In this document: one piece after another, positions 20,015 through 25,616 of the stretch
How the letters are laid out: each line of letters begins with the position of its first letter
How positions within the stretch are numbered: the stretch's first letter is position 1
Source of the DNA: Bacillota bacterium
GTDB lineage: Bacteria; Bacillota; SHA-98; UBA4971
DNA: 64,000 bases
Direction of reading: 5' to 3'
NCBI GenBank assembly: GCA_012842395.1
Contig: DUSX01000004.1
Span: 1-64,000 of the forward strand
Translations under genes and position numbers: made by a program
The notes under the pieces: generated by a model
Databases searched by the model: none
Seen by the model: only the letters and a program-made list of their open reading frames with translations
Told to the model about the DNA's origin: nothing

Positions 20015-21643
20015 TCACTTTCGCAGCAAGCCTGCTCTCCGCAACGCATCGGCGAGATCGCGACCGACGAGCGGAACCGCCGCAACCTCCCGGTACGCGA
20101 ACTCGCCCAGCACGGTGAGGACGACGGCGTACACGATGGCTCCGGCCACGACAGCCGCGACGGTTGATAGGGAGTTGTCGTAGGAGTAGGCAAGGCAGGA
20201 CTGGTACACGCACGTGACCACAGGAACCATGACTATGCATCCGGCGAGGGCTCGCCACCCGACGGCAAGGAGCCTCCAGCCATCGCCGCTCGCCCTGGCC
20301 ACTGCAGCCGTGTTGAGGGTTCCGGCCACAACAAACGCGAGACCTGTGCCAAGGGCAGCTCCCCTGATCCCGAACTCGGGCATGGCGGTGAGAACGTAGT
20401 TGACCCCTCCTGCCACGGCCGCGCCGATGAGGCCGTTTCTGGCCGGCACGAGGACCCTCCCGTAGCCATTGAGGACACCCGCCGTGGTTTGTTGCAGGCA
20501 AAAGAAGAGCGACGAGAACGCCATGGCCGAGAGAGGCGTCCCGCCCGCCGGGTCTTTGAAAAGGAGCGAGCACAACTGCGTCGGGAGCACCGCGAGCCCA
20601 GCGGCGGCCGGAAGTCCTATGACGAACGCGCTGCGCAGCGCCTGGCGGGCGAGACGTCTCGATCTCTGCACTTCGCCGCACGCGTCGGCCGCCGCCACCT
20701 GGGGGACGAGGCTCGTGGCGACCGCAACCGTGACCACCCCCGGCAGGGCCACGAGCCCGAGCGCCATCACCTCGAGATGGCCGTACAGCCTGGTGGCCTC
20801 AGCCACAGCGTGCCCCGCTTGCTGGAGGCGGGCGGGCACCACTACAGCGTTGATGGCCTCGAGCAAGGGGAGGACGAGTGCACCCAGGGTGGCTGGTCCA
20901 GCAAGGGAAAGCAGCTGGCACAGGGTCGCCCCTGGGCCGCTGCGCTGGACGCGGGCGTGGCTTTTCGCGAGCTCGAAAGCTCCCCGGGCGGGCGAGGAAC
21001 GCGCCTGTTCCCCACACGCCGTGAAGTAAAAGGCCGCCAACACGCAAAGGCCGGCCGCGGCACCGGCCCAGCTACCCGCCGCCGCGCCTGCGGCTGCCCA
21101 CTGAACGCCCCTCGGGACGAGAGCGTATGCGAAGGCGAGGCCCGCTACGACCCGCACGACTTGCTCGGCCACCTGCGAGGCCGCCGTGGGTATCATGGTG
21201 CGATAGCCTTGGAAGTACCCGCGCAGCGCGCCTGCGATGGGGCTTATGAGAAGGGCGGGAGACAGCCATCTCATCGCGAAGTACGCCCTGGGGTCTTTGA
21301 CGACGGTCGCGGCAAGGAAGCCCGCGCTCGCGTAGAGGGCTCCGGAAAGCGCGAGCGCGATGGGGATGACGAACCCGAGGCACACCTGGAGGACCTGTCT
21401 CGCGCCCCGGTGGTCACGTCGGGCCACACGCTCCGCGACGAGTTTGGAGGCGGCGACCGGGAGGCCGGACGTGCACAGCACGAGAGCCATGACGAAGACC
21501 GGAGAGGCCATGTGGAGGAGGCCAACGCCCTCGGCTCCGATGAGCCGGGCGAGGGGTATAGTGAAGAGGGCCCCGAACGCCTTCGTGACCACGGCGGCAG
21601 CTACGAGGATGGCGGTGCCTTTCAAAAAAGACTCGGACTTCAT
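20015..21643 (-). CDS. spoVB: SpoVB/MurJ-type polysaccharide flippase
   Basis: A 542-residue membrane protein of the MOP exporter superfamily, with about 14 hydrophobic segments. It opens SFLKGTAILVAAAVVTKAFGALFTIPLARLIGAEG and has the GYFQGYRTMIPTAASQVAEQ block typical of SpoVB and related lipid-linked oligosaccharide flippases. In spore formers such proteins act in cortex or cell wall precursor export; the exact cargo here is unknown. It follows the amidase gene by 120 bases. The ATG at 21643 lacks a good ribosome binding site. Confidence 0.87.
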   Translation of the reverse strand: MKSESFLKGTAILVAAAVVTKAFGALFTIPLARLIGAEGVGLLHMASPVFVMALVLCTSGLPVAASKLVAERVARRDHRGARQVLQVCLGFVIPIALALSGALYASAGFLAATVVKDPRAYFAMRWLSPALLISPIAGALRGYFQGYRTMIPTAASQVAEQVVRVVAGLAFAYALVPRGVQWAAAGAAAGSWAGAAAGLCVLAAFYFTACGEQARSSPARGAFELAKSHARVQRSGPGATLCQLLSLAGPATLGALVLPLLEAINAVVVPARLQQAGHAVAEATRLYGHLEVMALGLVALPGVVTVAVATSLVPQVAAADACGEVQRSRRLARQALRSAFVIGLPAAAGLAVLPTQLCSLLFKDPAGGTPLSAMAFSSLFFCLQQTTAGVLNGYGRVLVPARNGLIGAAVAGGVNYVLTAMPEFGIRGAALGTGLAFVVAGTLNTAAVARASGDGWRLLAVGWRALAGCIVMVPVVTCVYQSCLAYSYDNSLSTVAAVVAGAIVYAVVLTVLGEFAYREVAAVPLVGRDLADALRRAGLLRK

Positions 21644-21763: not shown

Positions 21764-23443
21764 TTACCGGCCTCGTGGCCTCACCACGACTATCGGCGTC
21801 TGTTGATCGTCGTTTCCGAACGGATTGTGTGCGAGAGCCCGCACGAGCCAATCGGACCGGCCCTCGAGGGTGGAGCCCAACACGTCCACACACCCGATGT
21901 CGTTCACGTCGACTACCGCGGCGTCAACCCCGGTGACCGCGTGGATCTCCCGTGCAACCTCATCGGGGTGCGCCGGCCCTAGAATCACGTGCTTGTCATA
22001 AGGTGGCATGGTGCCCGCGATGTCGTCTATCTGAGCGAGGGAGCGTCCCGCCACCCTGAAAAAGTCGCCTCTTCTCCCGAGGAGCCGCCCGACGCCTGCC
22101 GCAGCCGTCCCCAACAGCACTCTCCCAACCCCCGCTTCGCGTATGGCAAGCTCCATGGCGGGCGGCGTAGCCAAGCTACCGTCCTTGCCGGGCAGCTTGC
22201 AGAGGACTCGCGCAAGCGGCCTGGGGCGGACCTCTGCGGGGAGCACGGCCCTCCCCTGCGTGATGGCCACGACGCTCTCTGCCACAGCAATGACGTCGCC
22301 CGGGCGCGCGATCCCTTCCACGTAGCGGCGCACCACATCGGTGATCCTCTCGTGCTCGCCCACGAGGTGGGTGCGGATGGGAATCACATGCGCCGCCACC
22401 GGGATCTCGACGGTCTCGTCTTTGTGCCGACCCGTCAAGCCCTCTCTCTTCTGCACGCCCGGTCTGGCTTCGCTTTCGACGTGCCCGGCCCCGGCCGGAG
22501 GCCCGGAGACCGCCGGTGCTTCCCGGGGCTGCTCTGCAAAGTAGCGTTTCAGGCCGGTCATGATGGCCGACGCGGCCCTCTCCTTGAAGGTCGTGCTGCG
22601 GAACCACCCCTCTTCCACCCAGTTCGTGATGGTGGCGACCTCAATGAACGCGCACGGCACCCCGGGGTCAGCCGGGAGCTTTCCAGGGTATCGCGCCACA
22701 CCTCTCGACACAACGGGCAACTTCGCCGAGAGAGAGGCCGCGATATGCCTCGCCAGCCGCTCGCTGCGGCTGTCTGGCAAGTGAAGAGCGCGCGAGCCTC
22801 CCACTGAGCGGTCACGCGATCCGAACGTGTGAACGCTCACCAAGACGTCTGCCCGCGCCTCCCTTACCTGGCTGAGTCGCTTTGCCATCGGCACCTCTTG
22901 GTCAGAGGACCGAGTCATGACAACCGCCGCTCCAGCAAGGGTGAGACGCGTCGCAAGGACACGGGCGACGTCGAGGGTGATGTTCTTCTCGAGCAAGTTC
23001 ACGGGGCCGCGCTCCCCGTTGTCGCTCCCGCCGTGTCCCGGGTCCACGCCCACGACCCTTCCCTCGAATATGGCCCGCACCGCGCTCCAGTCGAAGTCGA
23101 TGACAAGGCGCGCCGGCACGCCCGCGCACGGAGTCACCGTCCAGGAGCAGGCGTGCTCCAGCTTAACGGTGACCGAGGGGTGAAGGTGATCCGCGGCCAC
23201 TGTGACTTCAACGAGCAGCCCGTCGTTTACCGTCAGGGTGTCGGGAGCCATGGCGAGGTCGCAGCCCGGGAGGTCTATCCGTACCTGGCCGGGGGATGGG
23301 GCACGAACGCGATGCGACATAGGAAGCGTCGCCTCGATGACCAGGCGTGAAGTCATCCGGCGGCATATCGGGTCAGCGTGCTCCGTGGCCCATACGTTTG
23401 TGATCTTGGGCTTCTCCAAACGCACCAACCCCGCCCGGCGCAA
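21764..23443 (-). CDS. N-acetylmuramoyl-L-alanine amidase fused to an F420 gamma-glutamyl-ligase-like domain
   Basis: A 559-residue three-part protein. Residues about 14-118 look like an AMIN domain (beta-rich, ending RLVIDFD). Residues 130-302 are an Amidase_3 zinc amidase: DPGHGG with H137, E152, H205 in SVHTFGS and E268 in AFIEVATITN match the metal and catalytic positions. After a linker (about 305-348) residues 350-555 resemble stand-alone Firmicutes proteins annotated as coenzyme F420-0:L-glutamate ligase (CofE-like): PGDVIAVAESVVAITQGR, FFRVAGRSLAQIDDIAGT and VVDVNDIG. The reading frame is continuous. No signal peptide is visible, which is odd for a wall hydrolase. The start codon (TTG at 23443) is uncertain. 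Confidence 0.8.
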   Translation of the reverse strand: MRRAGLVRLEKPKITNVWATEHADPICRRMTSRLVIEATLPMSHRVRAPSPGQVRIDLPGCDLAMAPDTLTVNDGLLVEVTVAADHLHPSVTVKLEHACSWTVTPCAGVPARLVIDFDWSAVRAIFEGRVVGVDPGHGGSDNGERGPVNLLEKNITLDVARVLATRLTLAGAAVVMTRSSDQEVPMAKRLSQVREARADVLVSVHTFGSRDRSVGGSRALHLPDSRSERLARHIAASLSAKLPVVSRGVARYPGKLPADPGVPCAFIEVATITNWVEEGWFRSTTFKERAASAIMTGLKRYFAEQPREAPAVSGPPAGAGHVESEARPGVQKREGLTGRHKDETVEIPVAAHVIPIRTHLVGEHERITDVVRRYVEGIARPGDVIAVAESVVAITQGRAVLPAEVRPRPLARVLCKLPGKDGSLATPPAMELAIREAGVGRVLLGTAAAGVGRLLGRRGDFFRVAGRSLAQIDDIAGTMPPYDKHVILGPAHPDEVAREIHAVTGVDAAVVDVNDIGCVDVLGSTLEGRSDWLVRALAHNPFGNDDQQTPIVVVRPRGR

Positions 23444-23523: not shown

Positions 23524-23757
23524 TCATCCCCCGGAAACCGGAGGGAACACGGTGACCCTGTCGCCCGGGAACAACCTAGTCGAGGCACTGCCCACCCTGT
23601 CGCCTATCAGGACGATCCCCCATAAACCCTGGGGTAGGCCCACCGCAGCCAGGGCATCGCCCACGGTGGCGTCTTCAGGGAGCTCGACCTCGGTCATCTC
23701 TGCGAGGCCGGGGCGCACGGACACCAAGACCTTGGACATCTCAACAGTCACTTTCAT
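23524..23757 (-). CDS. MoaD/ThiS-like sulfur carrier protein
   Basis: A 77-residue beta-grasp protein ending PPVSGG; the terminal GlyGly is the thiocarboxylation site of MoaD and ThiS. It overlaps the aldehyde ferredoxin oxidoreductase gene by 4 bases (ATGA). MoaD-like proteins commonly accompany these tungsten enzymes, where they probably serve pterin cofactor synthesis. Confidence 0.85.
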   Translation of the reverse strand: MKVTVEMSKVLVSVRPGLAEMTEVELPEDATVGDALAAVGLPQGLWGIVLIGDRVGSASTRLFPGDRVTVFPPVSGG

Positions 23758-25616
23758 GATATCCGCCCCATCGCCAAGAGCTCTGCCGCAACGTCGGCGA
23801 GGCCCAGCCTTTCGAGGGTCTTGACCGTGGGCCGCCCGTCACGGTCCCAGCCACGCAAATCATAGTATTCATCGAGGAGCCGATCGATGTCCTCACGCGT
23901 GACGCGTGACCCTGCCAGCGGTCCGTCCGGAACGGGTTCGGTGTAGAACCTCCGCGGCGGCTGGTCGTCCGCCCTGCCGAAGTCAGCCCTTTCGCGTACG
24001 CCGAACGCCCGCACGAGGTTCCAAATGCGCTCCGACTTCAGGAGCAGGTCCTCCCATGTATCATCGCGCCCTGTCACCGCCGGATACAGCCTGGCGTAGT
24101 ACTCCAGCGGCAGGCCAAGCTCGACCCACTGCAGGCGGCACACTCCCAGACAATCGAAAAGCGGCCTCACGTGTTGCAGCTCAACGACCTTCGCGGCCTT
24201 TCCTTCAATGACGTTGCGCCCGACCGCGATGTCGTGGGTGACGGACCACGCCCGGTTGTGGTGAGCTCCGATGTCGCACGTCATGTAGGCGAGCATCATG
24301 GACGGCGCACCACGTGATTCGTATCCGCTCCACTCCAGGCCCTTGACCTGAATGGCGAAGTCCTCGCTGCCACCGCCCCAGGCCGCGGCGGCGGCTCTCA
24401 CGCCCCTTGAAAGGGGCGCGCCGATGCCTTGGCGCGCCGCTATGAGCTTTGCGATCTCGACGAACGCCTCGAGGCTCCCGAAGCGGGCTTCAATGCCGCC
24501 AGTATCCTCCTTCGTGATTATCCCGCGCTCGAAGCACTCCATGGTGAAGGCCACGGCATTGCCGGCCGAAATGGTGTCCAGGCCGAGCTCATCGCACATG
24601 TAGTTGGCGTACGCGACCTCCTCGATGGAGCCAAGCGCGCAGTTGCTGCCGATGAGGGCCGTAGTCTCGTACTCCGGGCCCTCGAGGAACACGCTCTCGC
24701 CCCTGTGGCTCGCCTTGCAGTACTTGCCCGTGGCCATAGGGCACGCAAAGCATGCTTTGTCTCTGACGTGGATGTCGCTGCGCATGCGCTCCCCGCTCAA
24801 AGCATCGGCGTTTTCGTAGAAGTTCTGGCGGAAATTGCGTGTGGGCAGCGCGCCGATGGAGTTCGACCACGTCGTCACCTGGGCCAGCCCCTGATCCTGC
24901 CACACTTTGAGCGCGGGGTTGGCAGCGAGGGCGGAGAACATCTCGCCTGCGACCTTGCGCAGGGCGGACATGTCAGCCACAGGAACGCCCTTGGTGCCCC
25001 GCACCGCAATGGCCTTCAGGTTCTTGGAGCCCATGACCGCGCCCATGCCGCACCGCCCGGCTTGGCGGCCGATGTCGTGATTCACGCAGGCGAAAACCAC
25101 CATGTTCTCGCCCGCGGGTCCGATGGTGGCTATCTGAAACTCGTCCCCGAGCTCGTCCTTGAGAGCCTTCTCCGTCTTGATCGCGCCCATTCCCCACAGC
25201 TTCTCGCAAGGGCGCACCTCGACCTTGTCGTCCTCAATGAATAGGTACGATGGTACGGGCGCCCTGCCTTCCAGCACGACCGCATCGTAGCCGGCGTACT
25301 TGAGCTCACCAGCGAGATGCCCCCCGATGTTGCTGTCGCCGTAGAGCCCTGTCGCCGGGCTCTTGGCAGAGAAACTCGTCTTTGAACCGCTGGGCAGGAA
25401 CACGCCGGAGAACGGCCCCGCGGCCACCACTAGCTTGTTGCCGGGCCCAAGCGGGTCGGTGCCGGGTGGGACCTCCCTGTACACGAGGTATGCGCCGAAG
25501 CCCCGGCCGCCTATGTAGGCGTTCACGAGGTCCTCGGCAAGCGGCTGCGCGGAAGCGACGCCCGTGGACAAGTCAACCCTCAGGATGCTTCCCGCGTATC
25601 CGTGCATCGTCCGCAT
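23754..25616 (-). CDS. Aldehyde ferredoxin oxidoreductase family protein
   Basis: A 620-residue member of the AOR family, which uses a tungsten (or molybdenum) bis-pterin and one 4Fe-4S cluster to oxidise aldehydes to acids while reducing ferredoxin. Family-like segments are YIGGRGFGAYLVYREV, SGSKTSFSAKSPATGLYGDS and GRQAGRCGMGAVMGSKNLKAI. Cluster cysteines are C289, C292 and probably C300 (CFACPMATGKYC), plus one in DCLGVC near the C terminus. The usual spacing is CxxCxxxC, so the third ligand is displaced here. The ATG has AGGTGG 8 bases upstream and directly abuts the ferredoxin stop. MoaD follows and ferredoxin precedes it. Confidence 0.93.
   Translation of the reverse strand: MRTMHGYAGSILRVDLSTGVASAQPLAEDLVNAYIGGRGFGAYLVYREVPPGTDPLGPGNKLVVAAGPFSGVFLPSGSKTSFSAKSPATGLYGDSNIGGHLAGELKYAGYDAVVLEGRAPVPSYLFIEDDKVEVRPCEKLWGMGAIKTEKALKDELGDEFQIATIGPAGENMVVFACVNHDIGRQAGRCGMGAVMGSKNLKAIAVRGTKGVPVADMSALRKVAGEMFSALAANPALKVWQDQGLAQVTTWSNSIGALPTRNFRQNFYENADALSGERMRSDIHVRDKACFACPMATGKYCKASHRGESVFLEGPEYETTALIGSNCALGSIEEVAYANYMCDELGLDTISAGNAVAFTMECFERGIITKEDTGGIEARFGSLEAFVEIAKLIAARQGIGAPLSRGVRAAAAAWGGGSEDFAIQVKGLEWSGYESRGAPSMMLAYMTCDIGAHHNRAWSVTHDIAVGRNVIEGKAAKVVELQHVRPLFDCLGVCRLQWVELGLPLEYYARLYPAVTGRDDTWEDLLLKSERIWNLVRAFGVRERADFGRADDQPPRRFYTEPVPDGPLAGSRVTREDIDRLLDEYYDLRGWDRDGRPTVKTLERLGLADVAAELLAMGRIS

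Follow-up and report, generated by a model that had tools for sequence, protein, structure and literature searches.

A leaderless AMIN-type amidase fused to a CofE-like domain in Bacillota, with a plausible role at peptidoglycan stem peptides

In the window, a 64,000-nucleotide stretch of a Bacillota genome, one gene encodes both an AMIN-type peptidoglycan amidase without a signal peptide and a domain with the fold of the F420 ligase CofE. We find that these two proteins are genetic partners in many Bacillota, that the CofE-like half is not an F420 ligase, and that the fused protein is plausibly aimed at peptidoglycan stem peptides. We found no description of this fusion, or of cytosolic AMIN amidases, in the literature searched, in keeping with the sequence-only reading of this DNA, to which the architecture was not familiar. 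The gene pair points not to F420 but to an uncharacterised intracellular step in which an amide bond of a wall building block is made or edited.

The fused gene and its distribution

The single open frame claimed in the sequence-only reading is real and lies on the minus strand, which that reading omitted; it runs from a TTG start at 23443 to a stop at 21764. The features discussed here are as follows.

21764..23443, minus strand: fused gene, 559 aa, AMIN-like, Amidase_3 and CofE-like (ORF, Pfam, AlphaFold2 model)
23090..23407, minus strand: predicted AMIN-like beta domain, residues 13-118 (AlphaFold2 model; Foldseek match to AmiC, 4BIN)
22532..23056, minus strand: Amidase_3 catalytic domain, residues 130-304, with H137, E152, H205 and E268 intact (Pfam, alignment A3, Foldseek)
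22394..22531, minus strand: low-confidence linker between the halves, residues 305-350 (pLDDT below 50 at residues 318-344)
21776..22393, minus strand: CofE-like domain, residues 351-556 (Pfam, alignment A2, Foldseek to the CofE structures 2PHN and 7ULD)
20015..21643, minus strand: SpoVB/MurJ-like flippase, 120 bp downstream of the fused gene (Pfam Polysacc_synt and MurJ)

Of the two N-terminal domains that had been read from the sequence, Amidase_3 (PF01520) was recovered by Pfam at residues 131-299 (E 7e-32, 111 bits, cut-off 27), but Pfam made no AMIN call in the 559-aa protein, and the AMIN assignment is instead that of a confidently predicted beta domain with a Foldseek match to AmiC. The second half matched the Pfam family F420_ligase at residues 356-501 (E 2e-7, 31.1 bits, cut-off 25). 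The AlphaFold2 model (mean pLDDT 86) resolves the beta domain, the amidase, the linker and the second domain, with the linker disordered in the model, and Foldseek searches with it matched AmiC, LytH and CwlV as well as Archaeoglobus CofE (2PHN, E 8e-7).

The sequence-only reading had raised the possibility of a stop or frameshift near 22400-22500, in which case two separate genes would have been mistaken for one. Neither is present: the region is the linker, and 11 further genomes of the window organism's family and 4 genomes of sister families have the same uninterrupted frame, which rules out an assembly artefact or frameshift. Of the 13 family genomes searched, 12 encode the fused protein, each with the frame open, and the sole genome without it (G005) is 88% complete. 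A search for the same two-domain fusion also found it in two sister families of the same class and in a Desulfotomaculia-like genome of another family (G170), which carries one fused and one split copy; thus, the fusion probably arose more than once. In Pelotomaculum and Moorella, the amidase and CofE-like genes are separate but adjacent.

We note that four sister-genus loci (L021, L028, L029 and L030) encode, in addition, a CofE-like protein that stands alone and shares about 43% identity with the domain of the fusion. Long ORFs around CofE-like genes in some high-GC genomes (L149, L150 and L151) at first resembled further fusions, but nothing matched their N-terminal parts, which appear spurious.

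A CofE fold that is not an F420 ligase

The sequence-only reading took the C-terminal half to be like the F420 gamma-glutamyl ligase. Its fold is indeed that of CofE, by both Pfam and Foldseek, but the assignment to the F420 type failed on score, on motifs and on the C-terminal segment. The fused protein scored 18.1 bits with the CofE equivalog model (TIGR01916, NCBIfam), whose cut-off is 180.65, and the stand-alone CofE-like protein of Pelotomaculum matched CofE in Foldseek (E 2e-9) at about 20% identity, with nothing else significant. The family has the fold of archaeal CofE, F420-0:L-glutamate ligase (2PHN, 7ULD), and the Asp-Thr/Val-Asn motif of CofE aligns with D164/N166 of the A2 profile, but the family lacks the SK, GID.SN and GR motifs of Af-CofE and is about 40 residues shorter C-terminally. 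In structures of Af-CofE, a domain-swapped hairpin contacts F420 (PMC10861534); to judge from the alignment, this hairpin would be missing or reduced in the CofE-like family.

The sequence-only reading had also raised the question of other F420 genes, and the genome of the window organism gave little sign of them: no CofH scored above cut-off, CofC gave a marginal match only, and the sole CofD match is YvcK, beside RapZ. On the low CofE score, the lack of a CofH above cut-off, the marginal CofC match and the identity of the CofD match, we reject a role in F420 biosynthesis. That the protein is nonetheless an F420 gamma-glutamyl ligase, as its domain name has it, would agree with the Pfam family and the CofE fold, but against a score so far below cut-off, a shortened domain and the state of CofH and CofD we give this reading almost no weight. 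We conclude that the CofE-like domain is not an F420 ligase. The family that bears this label was present in 162 of the 398 Bacillota genomes sampled and in almost all Negativicutes, and the genome of the window organism has no recognisable F420 synthesis; if the protein modifies stem peptides, a widespread annotation would be corrected.

What the family does conserve is distinctive. The invariant motifs IDD..GTMPPYDKH and DVND lie around residues 473-486 and 512-515 of the fused protein (alignment A2), and across distant classes there are 25 invariant columns, several of them acidic, which suggest an active site. CofE forms its amide bond with GTP and Mn2+; some acidic residues align between CofE and the family, and the SK motif is replaced; because the nucleotide-site motifs of CofE are partly replaced in this way, use of a nucleotide by the CofE-like half is not assured. 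If the half were instead a non-catalytic ligand-binding or scaffold domain, the protein might be a regulator that senses, for instance, muropeptides or D-glutamate. That idea is consistent with the loss of the C-terminal segment and several CofE motifs, and with the dead amidase partners of some lineages described below, but the invariant columns suggest an active site and the protein carries no DNA-binding or signalling domain; we consider a regulator rather unlikely.

A leaderless amidase kept beside the CofE-like gene

The absence of a signal peptide, from which a cytosolic location had been proposed, proved to be general. The N-terminus of the fused protein has no hydrophobic stretch and its fold starts at residue 13, and the amidase of every lineage seen, other classes included, starts at a TNI(W/Y/F)-like motif without a hydrophobic leader. 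The four catalytic residues named in the sequence-only reading (H137, E152, H205 and E268) are all present and are invariant across intact relatives (alignment A3). The amidase half has the catalytic domain, zinc ligands and AMIN-like N-terminal domain of CwlD/AmiC-type N-acetylmuramoyl-L-alanine amidases, but differs from them in lacking a signal peptide, in its own motifs (the TNIW start, GPVNL.EK and TITNWVEEG) and in having a CofE-fold protein as its genetic partner. The fused protein scored 78.2 bits with the CwlD equivalog model (TIGR02883, NCBIfam), short of the cut-off of 221.55. By its residues, the amidase half would be able to cut the MurNAc-L-Ala bond where the zinc site is intact.

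We assessed the partnership in 398 Bacillota genomes, the same set being used for the amidase, the CofE-like gene and Omp85. By manual selection among the matches, taking those that began no later than model position 7 and scored above about 187 bits, we counted 60 full-length leaderless amidases in 59 genomes, and all 59 genomes also carry the CofE-like gene. Moreover, the distance to the CofE-like gene is at most 5 kb for 57 of the 60 copies and at most 200 bp for 48, where about 0.3 would be expected by chance. The P value overstates this association, since the genomes surveyed are related to one another, but the arrangement varies by lineage: fused, overlapping, adjacent and co-directional, or divergent.

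In four lineages the amidase partner has lost all its zinc ligands and catalytic residues and is still leaderless:

L163:9384-10301, L170:5397-6284, L176:7116-8006 and L182:5231-6166: degenerate amidase partners, near the CofE-like gene and mostly divergent from it

Their retention beside the CofE-like gene suggests that the amidase is conserved for binding and not for cutting alone, and their existence implies that cutting is not always needed. The combined cut-and-ligate role put forward in the sequence-only reading is thereby weakened, in favour of recognition by the amidase half.

The same lineages bear on a possible role in peptidoglycan recycling. In E. coli, AmpD removes stem peptides from muropeptides that have been taken back into the cytosol; here the amidase half would strip stem peptides from cytosolic muropeptides, and the CofE-like half would process or re-ligate the freed gamma-glutamyl peptide. 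An intact zinc site, the lack of a signal peptide and the occurrence of the wall-turnover enzymes YkuD and DacF among the neighbours all fit, but the pair persists with a dead amidase in four lineages, the conserved neighbours seen include no kinase, permease or Mpl gene of recycling, and Negativicutes have the CofE-like gene with no amidase. We therefore regard recycling as doubtful.

Wall-precursor neighbours, polyamines and Negativicutes

The neighbours of the CofE-like gene include several from peptidoglycan metabolism: the SpoVB/MurJ-like flippase, Amj and YkuD (in one operon), DacF and MurI. The flippase of the window is likely on one transcript with the fused gene, and this gene order is kept in the family and the sister families. 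Another genome (G281) has five consecutive genes, for the amidase, an L,D-transpeptidase, the Amj flippase, the CofE-like protein and the arginine decarboxylase. On the other side of the fused gene, between it and an aldehyde ferredoxin oxidoreductase gene (23754-25616), is a small ORF (23524-23757, minus strand) that appears ThiS/MoaD-like by eye; relatives have an ORF of 77-79 aa at this place.

A second recurrent neighbour is pyruvoyl-dependent arginine decarboxylase, whose gene is no more than 5 kb from that of the CofE-like protein in 23 tabulated genomes from several families, at two further loci (L164 and L205) and on some Pelotomaculum-group contigs. The adjoining decarboxylase is often a second copy in its genome, has an intact self-cleavage motif, and occurs beside both the amidase-linked CofE-like type and the type linked to c2, a membrane-anchored protein described below. 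In the window organism it is on another contig, not beside the fused gene, and it was not beside the CofE-like gene in the Negativicutes loci examined. As a side observation, the decarboxylase also adjoins the CofE-like gene at L175, L210, L177, L190 and L191, with a further copy elsewhere in several of these genomes.

Its partnership with the amidase, together with arginine decarboxylase and flippase-type genes for lipid II among its neighbours, ties the CofE-like family to cell-wall precursors. We give slightly less than an even chance to a reading in which the fused protein is a cytosolic peptidoglycan-precursor enzyme, with recognition by the AMIN-amidase and amide joining on the stem peptide by the CofE fold. 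We infer its substrate, nucleotide use, amine and reaction direction as follows. The AMIN-amidase half would recognise the MurNAc-L-Ala-D-Glu part of a cytosolic wall intermediate, for which UDP-MurNAc-peptide, a lipid-linked precursor and a recycled muropeptide are candidates, and, with an intact zinc site, might cut the MurNAc-L-Ala bond as well. In the CofE-fold half, a nucleotide and metal would activate a glutamate carboxyl of the stem peptide, which would be joined to an amine, most likely a polyamine or agmatine that arises from, or is related to, the decarboxylation of arginine.

A more specific proposal, which we hold only tentatively and consider improbable as a whole, is that the CofE-like protein couples polyamines or agmatine to D-Glu of peptidoglycan precursors, that the leaderless AMIN-amidase is a stem-peptide recognition subunit, fused to it in this lineage, and that polyamination of the wall extends through the Firmicutes well beyond the Negativicutes. 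The proposed site of coupling, the alpha-carboxyl of D-Glu in peptidoglycan precursors, is also that of MurT/GatD, which amidates D-Glu of lipid II, but the folds of MurT/GatD (Mur ligase and glutamine amidotransferase) are unrelated. Free polyamines or agmatine might instead be gamma-glutamylated, and the presence of wall genes nearby would then be incidental. This reading would be in line with CofE-type chemistry and the dedicated decarboxylase copies, but leaves the amidase partnership, the flippases and MurI unexplained, and we think it has little chance of being correct.

Negativicutes bear most directly on the coupling of polyamines to precursors. These bacteria bear polyamines on the alpha-carboxyl of D-Glu in their peptidoglycan, which serve as tethers for the outer membrane (PMC10628300). 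The CofE-like gene is present in 195 of 200 genomes of one class (166 of 168 high-quality genomes), almost always as a single copy; we take this class, that of G253, as Negativicutes because the CofE-like protein of G253 is most similar to those of named Negativicutes. We know of no gene for the attachment of polyamines to Negativicutes peptidoglycan; none was named in the literature searched, in which searches for the diamine transferase gave nothing usable. The lipid intermediate:diamine transferase of Selenomonas is, as far as we know, an orphan activity. Since the CofE-like gene is near-universal in a class with a polyaminated wall and no known gene for it, the CofE-like protein is a candidate enzyme. 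The match to the Selenomonas activity is one of distribution, but the gene is also present in many monoderm Bacillota. If the CofE-like protein does modify stem peptides, a gene would be named for a wall modification without a described one, and outer-membrane anchoring in Negativicutes could be tested directly.

On the Omp85 survey of 398 Bacillota genomes, we reject a general tie between the CofE-like gene and the outer membrane. Many carriers of the CofE-like gene have no Omp85, and the two were not associated (45 of 102 Omp85-bearing genomes versus 117 of 296 others, P = 0.42); thus, a role in outer-membrane tethering cannot be general. Nor is a spore-specific role likely as the general function, since the non-sporeformers Phascolarctobacterium and Acidaminococcus carry the gene. 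The window organism itself is apparently a diderm, potentially spore-forming and perhaps Limnochordia-like member of the Bacillota: its genome carries Spo0A and, at one locus (L229, G000:C10:6000-25900), BamA/Omp85, a giant TamB-like protein and others similar to OmpH, LpxD and components of LPS transport.

Around the CofE-like gene of Negativicutes lie genes for membrane-anchored c2, a thioesterase, RNase PH, RdgB, YfcE and sometimes MurI. The c2 protein (L107:5385-5966) is conserved, about 180 aa long and without a Pfam match, and is paired with the CofE-like gene in some other Bacillota as well; it showed no remote similarity to the amidase or the CofE-like domain. A pair of Hydantoinase_A-type and histone-deacetylase-type genes is also found beside the CofE-like gene (L107:7642-10647, L043, L171, L217 and L218), and recurs in both Negativicutes and Moorella/Desulfotomaculia-like genomes.
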